This document shows positions 9,309 to 61,578 of a stretch of 64,000 nucleotides of DNA, one piece after another. The translations under genes were made by a program, and so were the position numbers. Every line of letters begins with the position of its first letter. Within the stretch, counting starts at the first letter, position 1. This DNA comes from Bacteroidota bacterium (GTDB lineage: Bacteria > Bacteroidota > Bacteroidia > Bacteroidales > P3): assembly GCA_017860275.1 (NCBI GenBank), contig JAFNAQ010000001.1, positions 248,001-312,000 of the forward strand, read 5' to 3'. A model generated the notes under the pieces. That model searched no databases and was not told the DNA's origin. It worked only from the letters and a program-made list of their open reading frames with translations.

Positions 9309-9375
9309 AGATTTTTTCTAAAAGAAATCTATACTTTTCTCAGAGAAAACCATAACTTTCTCAGAGAGAAATCCA
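9309..9375. repeat. Three tandem TTTCT/AGAAA palindromes
   Basis: Three palindromic units follow each other at roughly 25-bp intervals: one with TTTCTAAAAGAAA near 9309-9330, TTTTCTCAGAGAAAA at 9335-9349, and CTTTCTCAGAGAGAA from 9356. The same CTTTCTCAGAGA sequence forms the terminator at 56210-56253. Function unknown. Confidence 0.6.
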
Positions 9376-9634: not shown

Positions 9635-11500
9635 ATGAGAAAAAAACTACTAATAGTATTAGTCTTTGTATTAATATGCATTACATCAAAAGTCCAAGCC
9701 TATAGCTTCAGCGCAGTAGCGCCCTCAGGGCAAACATTATACTATAATATCACATCTTCAACTGCACCATATAAAGTTGAGATTACAAGAGAACTATTAT
9801 CTTACCCATATTATTCTACAAAACCGACAGGTGCTTTAGTTATTCCTGATTCCGTTTCATATAATGGGATAACATATTCTGTTACTTCATTAGGGGATTT
9901 TATATTTTATGATTGCTACGGTTTGGTCTCTTTAACAATTCCAACCTCTATTACGTCTATTGGACAGTATGCATTTTATGGTTGCAGCTATTTAACTTCT
10001 GTTGCAATTCCAAACTCTGTTACTTCGATTGCAAATAATTTATTTGAGGGATGCGTAGGCTTAACCTCTGTTTTAATCCCAAACTCTGTTACTTCGATTG
10101 GAAATGCTGCATTTTATCATTGCTGTTCCATAACCTCAATAACAATTCCAAACTCTGTTACTTCAATTGGCGCTGGTGCATTTTCTGCTTGTGGCAGTTT
10201 AATCTCTGTAACAATTCCTAACTCAGTTACTTCAATTGGGGGAAGTGCATTTTATTGTTGCAGAGGGTTAACCTCAATAATAATTCCAAATTCAGTTATT
10301 TCAATCGGAAATTATGCATTTCATAGTTGCAGCGGGTTAACTTCAATTGCAATTCCAAACTCTATTACTTCAATTGGTGATTATGCATTTTTTGGTTGCA
10401 GCACTTTAACTTCTGCAACAATTCCAAACTCAATTACTTCAATCGGGGAATATGCATTTTGTGGTTGCATCGGTTTAACTTCAATTACAATTCCAAACTC
10501 TATTACTTCAATTGGAGATGGTGCATTTTCTGGTTGCAGCGGATTAAATTCTATTACTTGTTTAGACACAGTTCCTCCTCAATTATTTTATGGGTCTTTT
10601 TATAATATAAATAAAGCTATCCCTATATATGTGCCTTGCTCATCAAAATTAAATTACCAAACAGCTCCAAATTGGAATACTTTTACTAATTTCATTGGAG
10701 TAAAAAACACACAAAATGTTTCTGCTTCAATCTGTCAAGGAGATATATACAAAAATTATGGAGCAAGTATTGATTCATCAGGTGTTTATACCTTCGTAAA
10801 TGGATGTGATAGCGTTATATTAAATCTTACTGTTACCCCAATTTATAGTGATACTATTACAGCATATATTTGTCAAGGACAAGTATATAACCAATATGGA
10901 TTTAATGCAGATAGTACAGAAATTTACACTCAAAACTTGCAAACTATTAATGGTTGCGATAGTATTATTACTTTAAATCTTACTGTTAATCCTAGTCCGA
11001 TAACTCCTAGTGGATTATTTGTTGAAAGGAAACATTCTTATTTAGAGATTACTTGGGATAGTGTTGGTGAAAGCTATGAAGTTTATAGAGATGATTCTTT
11101 AATTGCAACAACTTCGCAAGCAATTTATCAAGATACTAATGTCTTGAATGATTCTTCTTATTGCTATAAGGTAAAAGCATTTATAGGAAACTGCGAGAGT
11201 GATTTCTCTGTTGAAGAATGTATGCAGTTTGTTGGATTAAATGATATAAATATTAATAACCAAGATATAACTCTTTATCCAAACCCTACAAATGGAAAGG
11301 CTAAACTTTCTATTCAAAGGTTGAACGATAAGGCTCAAGTTAATATTTTTGATTTAACAGGAAGAGTGCTTAAGACATATACTATTGACACTAATCAAAA
11401 AGAATTAGAGATTGATTTATCTGGTTATGCAAAAGGTGTTTATAATATCTCAATAAATAACAACAACACTAATATTTCAAAGAAACTGATAATTCAATAA
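9635..11500 (+). CDS. BspA-like LRR surface protein with T9SS sorting domain (1)
   Basis: The 621-aa protein has a signal peptide (LLIVLVFVLICITSKVQA) and then about ten 23-residue BspA/LRR_5 repeats of the form [21 protein letters not shown] (residues about 65-310). After that come two GCDSxIxLNLTVNP repeats (about 355-450), a fibronectin III-like segment ([17 protein letters not shown]) and a type A T9SS C-terminal domain ([14 protein letters not shown], then GRVLKTY, ending in KKLIIQ). It should be exported, cleaved and anchored or released by the T9SS. BspA-type LRRs often bind host or matrix proteins, but no ligand can be inferred. First of three tandem paralogues with 13-bp spacers. Confidence 0.93.
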   Translation: MRKKLLIVLVFVLICITSKVQAYSFSAVAPSGQTLYYNITSSTAPYKVEITRELLSYPYYSTKPTGALVIPDSVSYNGITYSVTSLGDFIFYDCYGLVSLTIPTSITSIGQYAFYGCSYLTSVAIPNSVTSIANNLFEGCVGLTSVLIPNSVTSIGNAAFYHCCSITSITIPNSVTSIGAGAFSACGSLISVTIPNSVTSIGGSAFYCCRGLTSIIIPNSVISIGNYAFHSCSGLTSIAIPNSITSIGDYAFFGCSTLTSATIPNSITSIGEYAFCGCIGLTSITIPNSITSIGDGAFSGCSGLNSITCLDTVPPQLFYGSFYNINKAIPIYVPCSSKLNYQTAPNWNTFTNFIGVKNTQNVSASICQGDIYKNYGASIDSSGVYTFVNGCDSVILNLTVTPIYSDTITAYICQGQVYNQYGFNADSTEIYTQNLQTINGCDSIITLNLTVNPSPITPSGLFVERKHSYLEITWDSVGESYEVYRDDSLIATTSQAIYQDTNVLNDSSYCYKVKAFIGNCESDFSVEECMQFVGLNDININNQDITLYPNPTNGKAKLSIQRLNDKAQVNIFDLTGRVLKTYTIDTNQKELEIDLSGYAKGVYNISINNNNTNISKKLIIQ

Positions 11501-11513
11501 AATACTTCAAAGA

Positions 11514-14492
11514 ATGAAACAAAAACTACTAATAGTATTAGCCTTTGTATTAATATGCACAATCTCAAAAGTCCAAGCATACAGCTTCAGCGCAGTAGCC
11601 CCAACGGGACAAACATTGTATTATAATGTTACATCCTCAAACACTGTTGAGATTACAAATCAAAACGCAAGTTTTCCATTTAATACAACAAAACCTATAG
11701 GATCAATAATAATTCCGGATACAGTATTATATAACGGAACAACATACTCAGTAACTTCAATTGGATTTAATGCGTTTTCTGCTTGCTACAATTTAACCTC
11801 CGTAACAATTCCTAACTCAGTTACTTCAATTGGAAATGAAGCATTTTATAATTGCAACGGTTTAAACTCCGTTACAATTCCAAACTCCGTTACATCGATT
11901 GGAAATAGAGCATTTTCTAATTGCAGTGTGTTAATCTCTGTTGCTATTCCAAACGCTGTTACTATTATTGGAAATAATGCATTTTCTTATTGTAGTGGTT
12001 TAACCTCAATATCAATACCAAACGCCGTTACTTCGATTGGATTTAATGCTTTTTACGGTTGCACAAGCTTGACTTCTATAACAATTCCAACTTCTGTTAC
12101 TTCGATTGGGAATAATGCTTTTCAGAATACACCATATTACAACAATATGCCTGATGGAGTCATATATATTAACAATATACTTTACAAATATAAAGGGACA
12201 ATGCCAGCTGGAACAACAATAAATATTCCAGCTGGAACAATAAATATTTCCGAATCCGCTTTTTATGGTTGTACGAATTTAAACTCAATCACAATACCAA
12301 ACTCTGTTACTTCGATTGGCAGTGGTGCATTTTATAATTGCAGCGGTTTAACATCTGCTACAATCCCAAACTCTGTAGCATCTATTGGTACTGATGCATT
12401 GAATGGAACACCTTATTACAATAATATGCCTAGTGGAGTTGTATATATCAATAATGTGCTTTACAAATATAAAGGGGCAATGCCAGCAGGTACAATAATA
12501 AATATACCGTATGGAACAATAAGTATTTCAGGTAGAGCTTTTCAAAACTGTACCGGTTTAACCTCGATTTCAATTCCAAACTCAATCATTTCAATTGGCG
12601 ATTATGCTTTTTCAGATTGTAGTAATTTAAATCCAATTACTATTCCAAGCTCTGTCTCTTTAATTGGGAATTACGCATTTTTTGGTTGTAGTAGCTTAAC
12701 CTCTCTCACAATACCAAACTCAATTCACTCGATTGGAAATAGTGTTTTTTCAAATTGCAGCGGATTAACATCTGTTACAATCCCAAACTCAGTCTCTTCA
12801 ATAGGAGATGGTGCATTTGGAAGTTGTAGCAGTTTATCCTCTTTTACAATTCCAACCTCGGTTACTTCAATTGGCAATTATGCCTTCCTCAATAACTCAT
12901 CATTAAATACCTTATATTTTAATGCAAAGAATTGTATTGCAATGTCATATTTTCCTGTTTTTTCTGGATGCAGTCAACTAAAAAAGTTAGTAATAGGGGA
13001 TAGTGTACAAAATATTCCTTCATTTGCCTTTTATAATTGTAGTTCATTGAACTCAATCAGAAGTTATTCAATCACCCCCCCTGTTGTTTCCAGTAATAGT
13101 TTTTTTGGTGTAAACAAATCAATACCATTTCAGGTTCCATGTATTTCTGTCTCTAGATATCAGTCTACTTTATATTTGCAAGATTTCACAAACATATATG
13201 GGTATATCGACACAACCAACATTGATACAATTTGCAAGTGGCAAATATATAATAAGTTTGGATTTAACTTTTTAGCAGATACATCTGGTTTATACATTCA
13301 AACACTACAAACAAGTAATGGTTGTGATAGTATTGTGAAATTAAATCTAAAAGTATATCCAAGTTATAACTACACAATCAATGCAAGCATATGCAAAGGT
13401 CAGAGGTACACTTTGAATGGATTTGATAATGATACGGCAGGTTTATTTACACAAAATTTACTTACAATAAACGGCTGCGACAGTATAGTAAAATTAAACT
13501 TAACTATTAATCCAAACTATTTAACGACACATTCTGACACTATCTGTAAAGGACATAATTATAATAATTATGGTTTTAATTTTATAGCAGATACAACTGG
13601 TATTTATACTCAAAACTTACAAACTATTAGTGGTTGTGACAGTTTAATCAAATTATATATTATTGTAAATCCTATCTATTCTACATTAAATACCGATACT
13701 ATTTGTCAAGGACAAACTTATAATAATTATGGTTTTAATTTTATAGCAGATACAACTGGTATTTATACTCAAAACTCACAAACTATTAGTGGTTGTGACA
13801 GTATAATCAAATTAAATCTTACTGTAAATCCAAGCTATCTAAACTATTATACCGATACTATATGTCTAGGACAAATATATACCCAATTTGGATTTAATGC
13901 TGATAGTACAGGAACTTATACTCAAAACTTGCAAACTATTAATGGTTGTGATAGTGTAATTACTTTAAATCTTACTATTAATCCTAGTCCTAATACTCCT
14001 AGTGGATTATTGGTTGAAAGGAAACATTCTTATTTAGAGATTACTTGGGATAGTGTTGGAGAAAGCTATGAAGTTTATAGAGATGATTCTTTAATTGCAA
14101 CAACTTCGCAGGCAATTTATCAAGATAGTAATGTAGTAAATGATTCATCTTATTGTTATAAGATAAAGGCATTTATTGGAGACTGCGAGAGTGATTTCTC
14201 TGTTGAAGAATGTATGCAGTTTGTTGGATTAAATGATATAAATATTAATAACCATGATATAACTCTTTATCCTAACCCTACAAATGGCAAAGCTAAACTT
14301 ACTATTCAAAGTTTGAATGATAAGGCTCATGTTATTATTTTTGATTTAACGGGAAGAGCGCTTAAGACATATATTATTGACACTAATCAAAAAGAACTAG
14401 AGATTGATCTATCTGGTTATGCAAAAGGTGTTTATAATATCTCAATAAATAACAACAACACAAATATTTCAAAGAAACTGATAATTCAATAA
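11514..14492 (+). CDS. BspA-like LRR surface protein with T9SS sorting domain (2)
   Basis: The 992-aa paralogue of the preceding gene shares its signal peptide ([18 protein letters not shown]) and an almost identical sorting domain ending in KKLIIQ. Its LRR block is longer and includes two extended repeats with [20 protein letters not shown] and [13 protein letters not shown], an insertion typical of BspA families. Five GCDSxIxLNLxVNP-type repeats follow (about 600-840), each starting near a TDTICxGQxYNNYGF pattern. The 13-bp gap before it is identical to the gap after it, which shows tandem duplication of whole genes. Confidence 0.93.
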
Positions 14493-14505
14493 AATACTTC
14501 AAAGA

Positions 14506-17205
14506 ATGAAACAAAAACTACTAATAGTATTAGCCTTTATATTGATAGGCATTACATCAAAAGTCCAAGCCTACAGCTTCAGCGCAGTATGTTCATCAGG
14601 ACAAACATTGTACTATAATATAAAAACCTCAAACACTGTTGAGGTTACAAGTCAATATTTATCTTATCCTTATTATAATTCAAAACCTACCGGAGCATTA
14701 ATAATCCCGGATTCGGTAAGCTATAATGGAACAATATACTCTGTTACTTCAATCGGAAATGAAGTATTTAGTACTTGTAGCGGTTTAACCTCAATAACAA
14801 TTCCAAACTCTGTTACTTCGATAGGGAATAAAGTATTTAATGAATGTGGTAATTTAACCAGTGTAATAATGCCAAACTCAGTTACATCGATTGGAAATGA
14901 TGTATTTTATAATTGTAAAAATTTAACCTCAATAACTATTCCAAACTCCGTTACTTCGATAGGCGGTTCTGCATTTTCTGGTTGCAGCGGTTTAACCTCA
15001 ATAATTATTCCAAACTCCGTTACTTCGATAGGCGGTTCTGCATTTTCTGGTTGCAGCGGTTTAACCTCAATAATTATTCCAAACTCCGTTACTTCAATTG
15101 GAGGTTATGCATTTCAGAACTGCAGCAGTTTAGCATCTATTACAATTCCAAACTCAGTTGTATTAATTGGACCTGATGCGTTTTATAACACACCTTATTA
15201 CAATAATATACCTAATGGGGTTATATATATTAATAATATGCTTTACAAATACAAAGGCACAATGCCCTATGGTACAACAATAAATATTCCAATAGGAATA
15301 ATAAATATTTGTAGGTCTGCTTTTCAATCTTGCACCAATTTAACCTCAATAATAATTCCAAACTCCGTTACTTCAATTGGAGAATATGCTTTTAGCTACT
15401 GCAGTAATTTAAACTCTATTACAATACCAAACTCAATTACTTCAATTGGAGAATATGCATTTTATAACTGCACAAGCTTAGCCTCTATTACAATTCCAAA
15501 CGCCATTACTTCTATTGAAAATTCTACATTTTGGGCTTGCTGCAGTTTAACCTCTATTACAATACCAAACTCCGTTACTTCGATTGGAAGATATGCATTT
15601 TCTGAATGCAAATTTACCTCTGTTACAATTCCTAGCTCCATTACTACGATAGGTAGTGCAGCATTTTCTAATTGCAGCAGTTTAAACTCTATTACAATTC
15701 CAAACTCAGTAACTTCGATTGGTGGTGGTGCATTTTCCGGTACACCTTATTACAATAATATGCCTGATGGAATTGTATATATCAATAGTGTACTTTACAA
15801 ATATAAAGGCACAATGCCAGTCGGTACATCAATAAATATTCCGACTGGAATAGTAAGTATATCTGATTATGCATTTTCTATGTGCAGCGGTTTAACCTCA
15901 ATAACAATCCCAAACTCCGTCACTTCCATTAAAGATTATGTATTTTCACAGTGCAGCGGCTTAACCTCTGTTCCAATTCCAAACTCCGTTACTTCAATTG
16001 GCGATCATGCATTTTATCACTGCAGCAGTTTAGCCTCTATAACAATTCCAGACTCCGTTACTTCGATTGGCAATAATGCATTTTCTTATTGCACAGGTTT
16101 AACCTCAATAGCCTGCAAAGCAATAAATCCTCCGTCATTAAAAGGGAATCAAACATTTTTTTTTGCAAACAATACCATCCCGGTATACGTGCCTTGTGCA
16201 TCAAAATCAAATTACCAAACAGCTCCAAATTGGAGTGATTTCAATAACTTCATTGGAATAAAAAACACACAAAATATTTCAGCTTCCATCTGTCAAGGAA
16301 ATATATACACGAATTATGGAGCAAATATTGATTCATCAGGTGTTTATACCTTTGTAAATGGATGTGATAGCGTTATATTAAATCTTACTGTTACCCCTAT
16401 TCATAATGACACTATTACCTCAAACATTTGTCAAGGTCTAGTATATAATCAATATGGATTTAATGCCGACAGTACTGGGATTTATACTCAAAACTTGCAA
16501 ACTATTAATGGTTGTGATAGTATTATTACCTTAAATCTTACTGTTAATCCAATCTCTCAAACCTCTTATATCGATTCAATTTGTCAAGGACAAAATTATA
16601 ATAATTATGGTTTTAATTTTATAGCTGATACAACTGGCTTATATACACAAAACTTACATACTATAAACGGTTGCGATAGTATTATTACTTTAAATCTTAC
16701 TGTTAATCCTAGTCCTATTACTCCAAATGGATTATTGATCAAAAAGAAACCTACATATCTTGAAATTTCTTGGGATGGCAATGGAGATAGGTATGAAGTA
16801 TATAGAAATGACTCTTTGATTGCATCAACTTCGCAGGCAATTTATCAAGATAGTAATGTCTTGTATGATTCTTCCTATTGTTATAAGGTAAAAGCATTTC
16901 TTGAGGCTTGCGAAAGTGATATGTCTAAATCAGCTTGCATGAGGATCGCTGGATTAAAAGACATAAATATTAATAACCAAGATATAACTCTTTATCCTAA
17001 CCCTACAAGTAGTGATATTTATTTGAAAATAGATCAAAGTATTATTGGTTCTGGATATACAATTACAAATACATTAGGAAAGATTGTATTACAGGGAAAA
17101 CTACTAGATGTTAGTATGAATATTAATCTAAATGATTTCCCTCAAGGTATTTACTTTCTAAATATTGAAAAAACAAAACAAACCCTCAAGGTGATAAAAC
17201 AATAA
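14506..17205 (+). CDS. BspA-like LRR surface protein with a different T9SS sorting domain (3)
   Basis: The 899-aa third paralogue has a signal peptide, about 22 LRR_5 repeats, three [14 protein letters not shown] repeats and a fibronectin III-like segment. Two adjacent LRR units are identical at DNA level over 69 bp (14941-15009 and 15010-15078), so they duplicated very recently. Its sorting domain starts like the others (LYPNPTSSD) but then differs ([16 protein letters not shown], ending LKVIKQ), so the end of the gene was exchanged or diverged separately. Confidence 0.92.
14941..15078 (+). repeat. Exact 69-bp tandem duplication inside an LRR gene
   Basis: Positions 14941-15009 and 15010-15078 are identical base for base and encode one 23-residue LRR unit each. 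A multiple of three, the duplication keeps frame. Neighbouring units are diverged, so this pair is recent. Confidence 0.95.
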
Positions 17206-25455: not shown

Positions 25456-25896
25456 ATCTTTTTTATTTTATTTGGTTACTTATTTTCTTCTCTTTTTTAT
25501 TTGATTTATTTTCGCCCTTATCTGATTAATTTTCAGCAACTCCTGATTTAATTTCAAAAAGTCCTTATTTATTTTTACTAAGATGTGCATCTTAGCGTCT
25601 TAAGATGTACATCTTAGCTCCTTAAGATGCACATCTCAGCAAGCTAAGATGTGCATCTGAGCAAAATTAATCCCCTTTTAATTTACTTTTAATCTTATCC
25701 TCTTGCATTTATTCCTTATATTGCAGAAGTTTTATCTTATATAATTTAAATTTTATTTCGGTTAATGCAAAGATAACATTAATTTTGCAGAAAATTAAAG
25801 AATTCACAAAGAATTTTTTTACCCTAATCGTTTGACTTTATATTGTTTGGAATGATATTTGATAATGATTGGAAAAAACTAAACTTAAACAGTAAT
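25456..25896. other. Intergenic region with palindrome ladder
   Basis: About 440 bp between the divergent HU-like and DUF5686 genes carry the 22-bp ladder (25580-25663) and A/T-rich sequence with several ATTTG-like promoter candidates (25820-25870) that I cannot resolve. I see no other gene. Confidence 0.7.
25580..25663. repeat. Palindrome ladder, four units at exactly 22 bp
   Basis: Units start at 25580, 25602, 25624 and 25646, each AAGATG, two variable bases, CATCTnAGC and a short spacer. The second core, AAGATGTACATCTT, is a perfect palindrome; the others deviate by one or two bases. The exact 22-bp step puts every core on nearly the same DNA face. It could be a multi-site operator or nucleoid-protein array. 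Confidence 0.9.
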
Positions 25897-33483: not shown

Positions 33484-33560
33484 GTATGATAATCAGATAA
33501 TCATACACCGATAATCAGATTTCCAGCGCTAGAAACGAGATTTCCAGCGCTGGAAATGGC
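33484..33560. repeat. Palindromes at 21-22-bp spacing (GATTTCCAGCGCTGGAAATC type)
   Basis: GATTTCCAGCGCT begins at 33518 and again at 33539; the second copy, with TTTCCAGCGCTGGAAA, is a perfect 16-bp palindrome. A GATAATCA unit starts 22 bp earlier at 33496 and pairs with GTATGAT upstream. The step matches the other ladders in this window. Confidence 0.7.
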
Positions 33561-56164: not shown

Positions 56165-56209
56165 AAATTAAAAACAAGCAATAAACCCAAATTTTTATTC
56201 CATATACAT

Positions 56210-56253
56210 AAAACTTTCTCAGAGAAAAATAAAATTATCTCTGAGAAAGTTTT
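56210..56253. terminator. Bidirectional terminator
   Basis: A perfect 16-bp stem, AAAACTTTCTCAGAGA (56210-56225) with its complement (56238-56253), has A and T runs on both sides. It separates the convergent exporter and GldM-C genes. Its CTTTCTCAGAGA core also occurs in the palindromes at 9335-9370. Confidence 0.8.
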
Positions 56254-60287: not shown

Positions 60288-61193
60288 CTATTCCACAATA
60301 AACTTCTTAGAAACCAAACCTTGTTCTGTATTTAGCTTTGCAATATAAGAACCCTTTGTGTAAGAAGAAATATTAATAGTTTTTGAATAATCCTTAACCT
60401 CTGTTTTAAGAACCCTTCTACCCATAATATCATAAATCTCAATATCCTTAATCATAAAAGAACAAGAAAAATTAATATCATCCTTAGCTGGGATTGGATA
60501 AACTAATATCTCAGCCTTGTCTTTTTCAATATCATTAAGTCCAACTGTATTCGAACAACCCTCCTTTCCATAATGATATTGCAATTCTCCGTTATATTCG
60601 TAACAACGCAAGAAACCTCCAGAACTATGAATAAGAAGATGGTATATACTGTATAATATGCCTTGCATATCTCCAATACCTTCTATCCAATTACCAACTC
60701 CCTCCATATAATTTGTGTCAGCTCTGAAAATCTCTATAATATTGAATTTTCTTCTTTGAATATTATTAATTTCAACTGTATCTATTGATAAAACTCTAAG
60801 ATAAGTATTTATATTCCCCAAAAATGTATCTCCAATGGAAAGAGAAAAATCATATAACATACGGTTTGGCCAATACTCATGGTCATATTCAGCCTTTCCC
60901 TTATAAAACACCTGTCTGTTATCATTTTCCCTTATTCCCCCTATACATTCTGCCGTAGAGGAATTAAAAACAGAGTCCTGAAACCAGTATAGTTTCTTGT
61001 ATGTCTCACTTTCAATTACAGTATCCTCTTCGGTAAGTGCAAATCTATTATAATGACTAACTGGGGTTTCAGTAATGCCAAAATAAGTTGTCCAAATCTG
61101 AAGACCGGGTTTGACCATTGGGATATATTGATAGTCCTGTGCATAGGTTGTTAAGCCACTTATTATTATTAATATAAATACTAATTTCTTCAT
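60288..61193 (-). CDS. Secreted protein with T9SS sorting domain
   Basis: The 301-aa protein has a signal peptide (LVFILIIISGLTTYAQ), a beta-rich middle domain of no family I recognise (GIGDMQGILYSIYHL near residue 175) and a type A T9SS domain (ILVYPIPAKDDINFS, GRRVLKTE, ending VSKKFIVE). Function unknown. It is exported by the T9SS. Confidence 0.82.
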   Translation of the reverse strand: MKKLVFILIIISGLTTYAQDYQYIPMVKPGLQIWTTYFGITETPVSHYNRFALTEEDTVIESETYKKLYWFQDSVFNSSTAECIGGIRENDNRQVFYKGKAEYDHEYWPNRMLYDFSLSIGDTFLGNINTYLRVLSIDTVEINNIQRRKFNIIEIFRADTNYMEGVGNWIEGIGDMQGILYSIYHLLIHSSGGFLRCYEYNGELQYHYGKEGCSNTVGLNDIEKDKAEILVYPIPAKDDINFSCSFMIKDIEIYDIMGRRVLKTEVKDYSKTINISSYTKGSYIAKLNTEQGLVSKKFIVE

Positions 61194-61395
61194 ACTTTGT
61201 GATTGTTAAATAAATCCTTAGGAGGAAATTTATACTATTATATAGCAGTTTAACAGCAAAATTAAATAAAAGTTTGATAAGAATTATCATTCAATAAGCC
61301 TTTTCGAATTTTTATTTGATTTTATTCTACTTAATCCTTATTTTATTCTCGTAAATGCTTGATTTAAACTTTTTTTATAAGGATTTATTCTTGCT

Positions 61396-61479
61396 ATGGT
61401 AGCTACCCTAGGTGTGTTATGGTAGCTACCGTAGCACTGCTAGGGTACCTACCATAATTCTATTATGATGCGCATCTAA
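61396..61479. repeat. Palindrome ladder, four units at exactly 23 bp
   Basis: Units begin at 61396, 61419, 61442 and 61465. The cores are GGTAGCTACC twice, GGTACC within AGGGTACCTACC, and GATGCGCATC. The palindrome changes from unit to unit but the 23-bp step does not. It lies about 200 bp upstream of the secreted-protein gene at 61193. Confidence 0.85.
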
Positions 61480-61498: not shown

Positions 61499-61520
61499 GG
61501 GGCGCAGGCAAGCGGCGCCC
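61499..61520. repeat. G/C-rich hairpin
   Basis: GGGCGC and GCGCCC pair around AGGCAAGCG, in otherwise very A/T-rich DNA, preceded by seven Ts. It may be an imported repeat or a stable RNA hairpin. Confidence 0.5.
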
Positions 61521-61578
61521 GTACTTTTACAAAGATAGTGATTTTATTGGAATTATCTGAGGATTTATTGTAAAAAAA

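Follow-up and report, generated by a model that had tools for sequence, protein, structure and literature searches.

Palindromic ladders with steps of 21-23 bp precede HU-HIG and secreted-protein genes in Bacteroidales

A ladder of short palindromes at an exact step of 23 bp was found in a 64,000-nucleotide stretch of DNA (hereafter the window) from a Bacteroidota bacterium of the order Bacteroidales. Its regularity exceeds chance by far, and it is a member of a class. It is probably a DNA operator array for a protein of the HU-HIG family; the likeliest partner is the product of C87:80885-81259 in the same genome. Each HU-HIG paralogue would have a palindromic word of its own.

The window ladder and its copies

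The ladder consists of three GGTA-N2-TACC units followed by a fourth unit, GATGCGCATC (Table 1). All four dyad centres are spaced by exactly 23 bp, and both TRF and a repeat finder detected the ladder with period 23, in agreement with the preliminary description. That description had classed the third core as GGTACC-type. The arms of this core (GGTA and TACC) do lie on the grid, but its centre is CC, so that unit 3 is not fully palindromic, and the 6-mer GGTACC itself sits 2 bp off the grid.

Table 1 Features of the window that concern the ladders (window coordinates)
Feature	Position	Strand	Remarks
Ladder units 1-3	61392..61460	.	consensus TA-N-GGTA-SS-TACC-N-TA
Unit 1 core GGTAGCTACC	61398-61407		dyad centre 61402.5
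Unit 2 core GGTAGCTACC	61421-61430		dyad centre 61425.5
Unit 3 core GGTACCTACC	61444-61453		dyad centre 61448.5
Unit 4 GATGCGCATC	61467..61476	.	dyad centre 61471.5; word of AAGATGYRCATCTT ladders
-7 box TATCTTTG (+ strand: CAAAGATA)	61530..61537	-	84 bp before first core
G+C-rich stem-loop GGGCGC..GCGCCC	61500..61520	-	between promoter and ladder
A+T-rich leader stretch, 21-bp repeats (AAGGATT motifs)	61308..61391	-	between ladder and gene; kept among copies
Secreted protein gene, type IX secretion C-terminal signal (Por_Secre_tail)	60288..61193	-	downstream of ladder, presumed target
HU-HIG (PF18291) gene, 127 aa	25072..25455	-	downstream of 25579-25664 ladder
Second ladder, TAAGATGYRCATCTTA x4 at 22 bp	25579..25664	.	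same word (AAGATGYRCATCTT) as unit 4; 9 such ladders in genome
Third G+C-rich ladder, TTTCCAGCGCTGGAAA at 21 bp	33517..33558	.	matches ladder before HU-HIG gene C91:50435-50764 (L160)

Self-match segments were counted in 464 kb of unselected sequence from the genus (the window and twenty 20-kb stretches). Intergenic DNA contained 24, 11, and 4 segments at lags of 21, 22, and 23 bp, respectively, as opposed to 2 for all other lags between 12 and 41 bp, and in the coding DNA of the sample none were found at lags 21-23. Given this pile-up in intergenic DNA of the genus, the window ladder is not a chance occurrence. The first controls for the lag analysis, neighbours of HU-HIG genes, were themselves contaminated and were replaced by the unselected 464 kb and by shuffles.

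Other repeats were seen in the same DNA. Ladders of 21 bp also exist in a second, A+T-rich form (e.g. TTTTCTCAGAGAAAA), present in intergenic regions of the window (61316-61366, 25497-25582, 9314-9370, and 56208-56248) and often located between a palindrome ladder and a gene. Most of the 24 segments at 21 bp in the 464 kb displayed no match to an HU-HIG word. The window also holds large arrays of 69-bp coding repeats (9878-16110), by appearance encoding BspA-like leucine-rich repeat proteins.

When the whole genome (2.93 Mb, 111 contigs) was searched, the word was found at about 20 sites, nearly all with three units at 23 bp; this number is a lower bound, because several copies sit at contig ends. 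Alignment of the copies revealed a common block of ~235 bp, beyond which similarity ends. The block comprises, in this order, (i) a -7 box (TAnnTTTG, the Bacteroidetes -7 consensus); (ii) a variable hairpin; (iii) the motif GATGYRCATC; (iv) the three units; and (v) an A+T-rich stretch with 21-bp repeats. Of the 17 complete dispersed copies, 14 have the -7 box 83-103 bp ahead of the first core. Since it precedes the ladder at a conserved distance, the ladder is probably located in a transcribed leader, here that of the minus-strand gene at 60288-61193. The exact 23-bp step to unit 4, part of the preliminary description, is a property of the window copy and of one other; it amounts to 22 bp in 14 copies and to 30 bp in one. 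In congeners, synteny at the window locus is absent and different ladders are present there.

Also, the stem-loop of the window copy is swapped for another hairpin (GGGGCGAACCTATGTGTTCGCCC) in other copies. At this position between promoter and ladder (window 61500-61520; L009, L011, L012, L019, L026, and L027), two unrelated REP-like sequences alternate in copies that are otherwise near-identical.

Copies with a testable downstream gene were found in leader orientation. According to a crude signal-peptide predictor, nine of these 11 downstream genes encode a protein with a signal peptide, compared with a background of 28% (p = 4 × 10−4; nine out of ten if HU-HIG is excluded). The remaining two encode an HU-HIG protein and a protein without a signal.

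The presence of about 20 near-identical copies of ~235 bp, several of them at contig ends, together with the REP-like hairpin beside the ladder, would also be compatible with a selfish or passively amplified repeat (a MITE- or REP-like cassette) that has no regulatory role and is associated with HU-HIG only secondarily. We consider such an origin unlikely. Neither terminal inverted repeats nor target-site duplications were noticed at the block ends in an unsystematic inspection of the copy alignment, and the testable copies are in leader orientation, mostly before genes for secreted proteins. Moreover, it would leave unexplained why dozens of unrelated words with 21-23 bp steps occur before the genes of one protein family. 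REP elements are stem-loops of 20-40 bp tagged by GTAG or CGTC (PMC3733652). The ladders resemble them as dispersed intergenic palindromes with a REP-like hairpin nearby, but consist of phased short palindromes without loop and without GTAG/CGTC tag, and are tied to HU-HIG genes.

HU-HIG genes and their words

One copy of the ladder lies 93 bp before C87:80885-81259, whose product matches PF18291 with 94.3 bits (gathering cut-off 26.2) and is thus an HU-HIG protein. HU-HIG is a Bacteroidetes-rich branch of HU/IHF, reportedly defined in a sequence analysis by Burroughs and colleagues in 2017, and the ladder-adjacent genes belong to it by the curated cut-off; for the HU-HIG gene of the window, the match is 71.3 bits (cut-off 26.2). 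Ladder-adjacent HU-HIG proteins match Bac_DNA_binding more weakly. When the window protein was modelled with AlphaFold from its sequence alone, the pLDDT was 39.5, too low to bear on an HU/IHF fold. In total, the genome contains 23 matches to PF18291, including one canonical HU.

The association with ladders extends over the family. The lag profile of 103 HU-HIG upstream regions, taken from eleven congeneric genomes, has peaks at 21-23 bp and multiples thereof and nowhere else. A ladder of 21, 22, or 23 bp was detected in 55% of these regions compared with 0.3% of dinucleotide shuffles; in the other 45%, a clear ladder is missing. Restricted to steps of 22 or 23 bp, ladders precede 50 of 103 HU-HIG genes but only 11 of 332 other genes (odds ratio 27, p = 4 × 10−26). 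Of the HU-HIG ladders, 56% have a consensus unit that is palindromic at 5 or more of 6 arm positions, compared with 7% of shuffled units. Canonical HU genes, including those of the Bacteroides/Tannerella comparison, showed no ladder. Two congeners (G003 and G010) carry a single GGTAGCTACC ladder that does not adjoin an HU-HIG gene; a close orthologue of the presumed partner was not found in either. A stretch of G010 (L130) is contained in L072 from Bacteroidales bacterium UBA4893, which places UBA4893 within the genus of the window.

Further afield, a scan of public genomes returned eight loci from Bacteroides assemblies in which an HU-HIG gene is preceded, at 70-220 bp, by a GGTASSTACC ladder whose step is exactly 23 bp. 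Two more loci, from Prevotellaceae and Tannerella, have the ladder following the HU-HIG gene. HU-HIG genes with other words in Bacteroides and Tannerella are also accompanied by 22/23-bp ladders. Matches in Planctomycetaceae and actinobacteria displayed other steps or single pairs. The Planctomycetaceae loci (L031, L050, L055, L070, and L089) are long GGTASSTACC arrays with ~21-bp steps, in assemblies that carry the label of another phylum.

Ladder words differ between HU-HIG paralogues; further words in this genome include AAAAAGCGGCTTTTT, AAAATGGCATTTT, and AACATGGCATGTT, among others. Similarity between HU-HIG proteins correlates with similarity between their words (Mantel r = 0.51, reached in 0 of 2000 permutations), a correlation to which species relatedness contributes. 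In the IWKKKF subfamily, the core ATGSCAT is kept while the arms change on both sides (TAATGCCATTA, ACAATGCCATTGT, and ATCATGGCATGAT). At locus L190 (G005:C39:33287-34502), GGTATATACC occurs three times at exactly 23 bp, 214-260 bp before the start of an HU-HIG gene; the encoded protein is 44% identical to the presumed partner of the window ladder, and the half-sites of the two ladders are the same while the centre differs. One exception was detected: the HU-HIG protein of L177 is almost identical to that of L191 over the aligned region, yet a different ladder lies upstream. The alignment suggests that the L177 ladder belongs to a divergent leader.

The words are shared with ladders dispersed over the genome. 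Based on match scores and thresholds devised within the present analysis, each of the five dispersed 22/23-bp ladders in the own-genome sample matched an HU-HIG word of that genome (scores 20-61, shuffled maximum 14.7), as did 13 of 14 over all congeners when matched to any HU-HIG word. Among the 21-bp ladders of the own genome, the one at window position 33517 matched L160 (score 43) and the one at 13437 of L256 matched L148 (score 25); the other, A+T-rich ones had no HU-HIG word match. The word AGATGYRCATCT forms ladders at nine places in the genome, eight with a step of 22 bp and one with 23 bp. As unit 4 carries this word, the leader of the window ladder may be under two paralogues. A two-word compound array was also seen within one intergenic region (G000:C53:18984-19307, L015), where a GGTAGGTACC ladder is followed after ~200 bp by a AGATGYRCATCT ladder at 23 bp.

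Since the units of the window ladder are not all alike, the preliminary description had proposed that palindromicity and phase, rather than a word, are under selection, which would be unusual for operators. Across loci, this holds: palindrome and phase are kept in dozens of unrelated words with steps of 21-23 bp. Within a ladder it does not: practically every copy has GGTA-N2-TACC in each of the three units, and unit 4 is no drifted form of that palindrome but carries the word of another HU-HIG ladder. The ladders behave like operators that keep their word, and it is between paralogues that the word varies.

Step and palindrome follow a spacing rule. Where the palindromes of HU-HIG ladders are clear, 15 of 17 ladders with a step of 22 bp have an odd centre, and all seven with a step of 23 bp have an even centre (Fisher p = 1 × 10−4; 0.02 when collapsed by word), with most of the 23-bp ladders coming from one protein clade. 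For units of the ATG..CAT type, the rule holds neighbouring half-sites 16 bp apart. Such a constant distance is as expected if neighbouring dimers touch. The AAGATG ladder (22 bp) is an exception to the rule.

DNA or RNA

Given that most copies have a -7 box ahead of the ladder and that the leader folds well (z = -4.5 for the window ladder and -8.3 for 25575-25668), the ladder could alternatively be an RNA element, i.e. stem-loops in a transcribed leader that serve as an attenuator, in mRNA stability, or as a protein-RNA site. Any ladder of this kind, however, folds well as RNA, and the palindromes have no loop. The folds of L214 and L167 were left out of account. In 33 ladders, pairs of units displayed one-sided variation in 245 cases and compensatory change in 22 (shuffles 19.1 ± 5.0); pairing at variable positions was 0.520 compared with 0.519 after shuffling. 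G.T mismatches in the ladder palindromes were not in excess over A.C mismatches (38 vs. 28, p = 0.27). For the long leader hairpin, covariation was limited to one double change over 14 distinct copies. No Rfam match at gathering threshold was obtained within the window. Of 20 ladders with a recognizable full promoter, ten lie upstream of it, and hence outside the transcript, and ten downstream; -7 boxes alone are uninformative on the side of HU-HIG ladders. Taken as an RNA element, the ladder would be hard to reconcile with these results, and we regard this alternative as improbable.

Protein half-sites on DNA are favoured by the equal standing of G.T and A.C mismatches, the one-sided variation, and the ladders upstream of the promoter. 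Because compensatory change within ladders was tested for and not found, selection is on half-sites and not on self-complementarity as such. Thus, the checks proposed in the preliminary description came out against it within ladders, where changes between units are mostly one-sided, and lent no support to a role as RNA; between paralogues, palindromicity and phase are kept.

Proposed role and relation to known systems

From these patterns we infer that HU-HIG proteins bind the ladders specifically and cooperatively, act as repressors, and control their own genes as well as those of surface proteins. HU-HIG proteins belong to the HU/IHF superfamily and are presumably dimeric; each paralogue would recognize its own palindromic word. 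As the sites are iterated at 21-23 bp, i.e. two helical turns, dimers would align on one face of the DNA and could bind cooperatively. An array in the promoter or leader of the paralogue's own gene would confer autoregulation, and arrays in leaders or promoters of other genes would define its targets, in this case mainly secreted proteins. In the window element, where the array probably lies downstream of the start site, the bound protein might act as a roadblock or as a silencing filament. With unit 4, the same leader would be open to a second HU-HIG paralogue. As in an operator array, one word is repeated near the promoters of a set of genes that includes the gene of the presumed regulator.

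HU is the textbook example of an unspecific DNA-binding protein, and if the ladders are read correctly, word recognition must be new to the HU-HIG branch. Canonical HU binds DNA without sequence specificity (PMC5683647). In the open-access papers searched, no description of ladders, words, or target sites for HU-HIG was found.

Iterons and multi-site operator arrays of plasmid initiators and partition proteins are identical tandem sites about two helical turns apart and often autoregulatory. The ladders share direct repeats at two-turn spacing with iterons, their steps being only 21, 22, and 23 bp. They differ in being chromosomal, palindromic, and dispersed over many promoters, with one word per paralogue among about 20 HU-like proteins. 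Where iterons would be accompanied by an origin and an initiator gene, about 20 intergenic copies are found here, mostly before genes for secreted proteins. Two-turn iteration is generally known from iterons and centromere-like arrays, and ladders lie in intergenic DNA at intervals of about 12-15 kb; possibly, HU-HIG binds them as sites of chromosome organization, similar to partition sites, iterons, or nucleoid domains, and any regulation of genes is a side effect. Their fixed position relative to promoter and gene, as well as the enrichment of secreted-protein genes, make this very unlikely.

The ladders look like an unrecognized addressing system for the switching of surface-protein genes. 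If they are operator arrays, a candidate target word follows directly from sequence for many HU-HIG members, so that target sets would become predictable and testable in culturable Bacteroides. The pairs of paralogue and word would provide natural data on how HU-type proteins gain sequence recognition. In that case, one protein fold would have diversified into a large orthogonal set of regulators for the secreted proteins of an abundant bacterial group. In a wider and more tentative picture, which we hold to be possible though not the likelier case, Bacteroidales would have sequence-addressed chromatin: the HU-like paralogues of a genome, about 20 in number and each provided with a separate word and step, would form phased filaments that switch private sets of surface-protein genes, and word and step would co-diverge against cross-talk.
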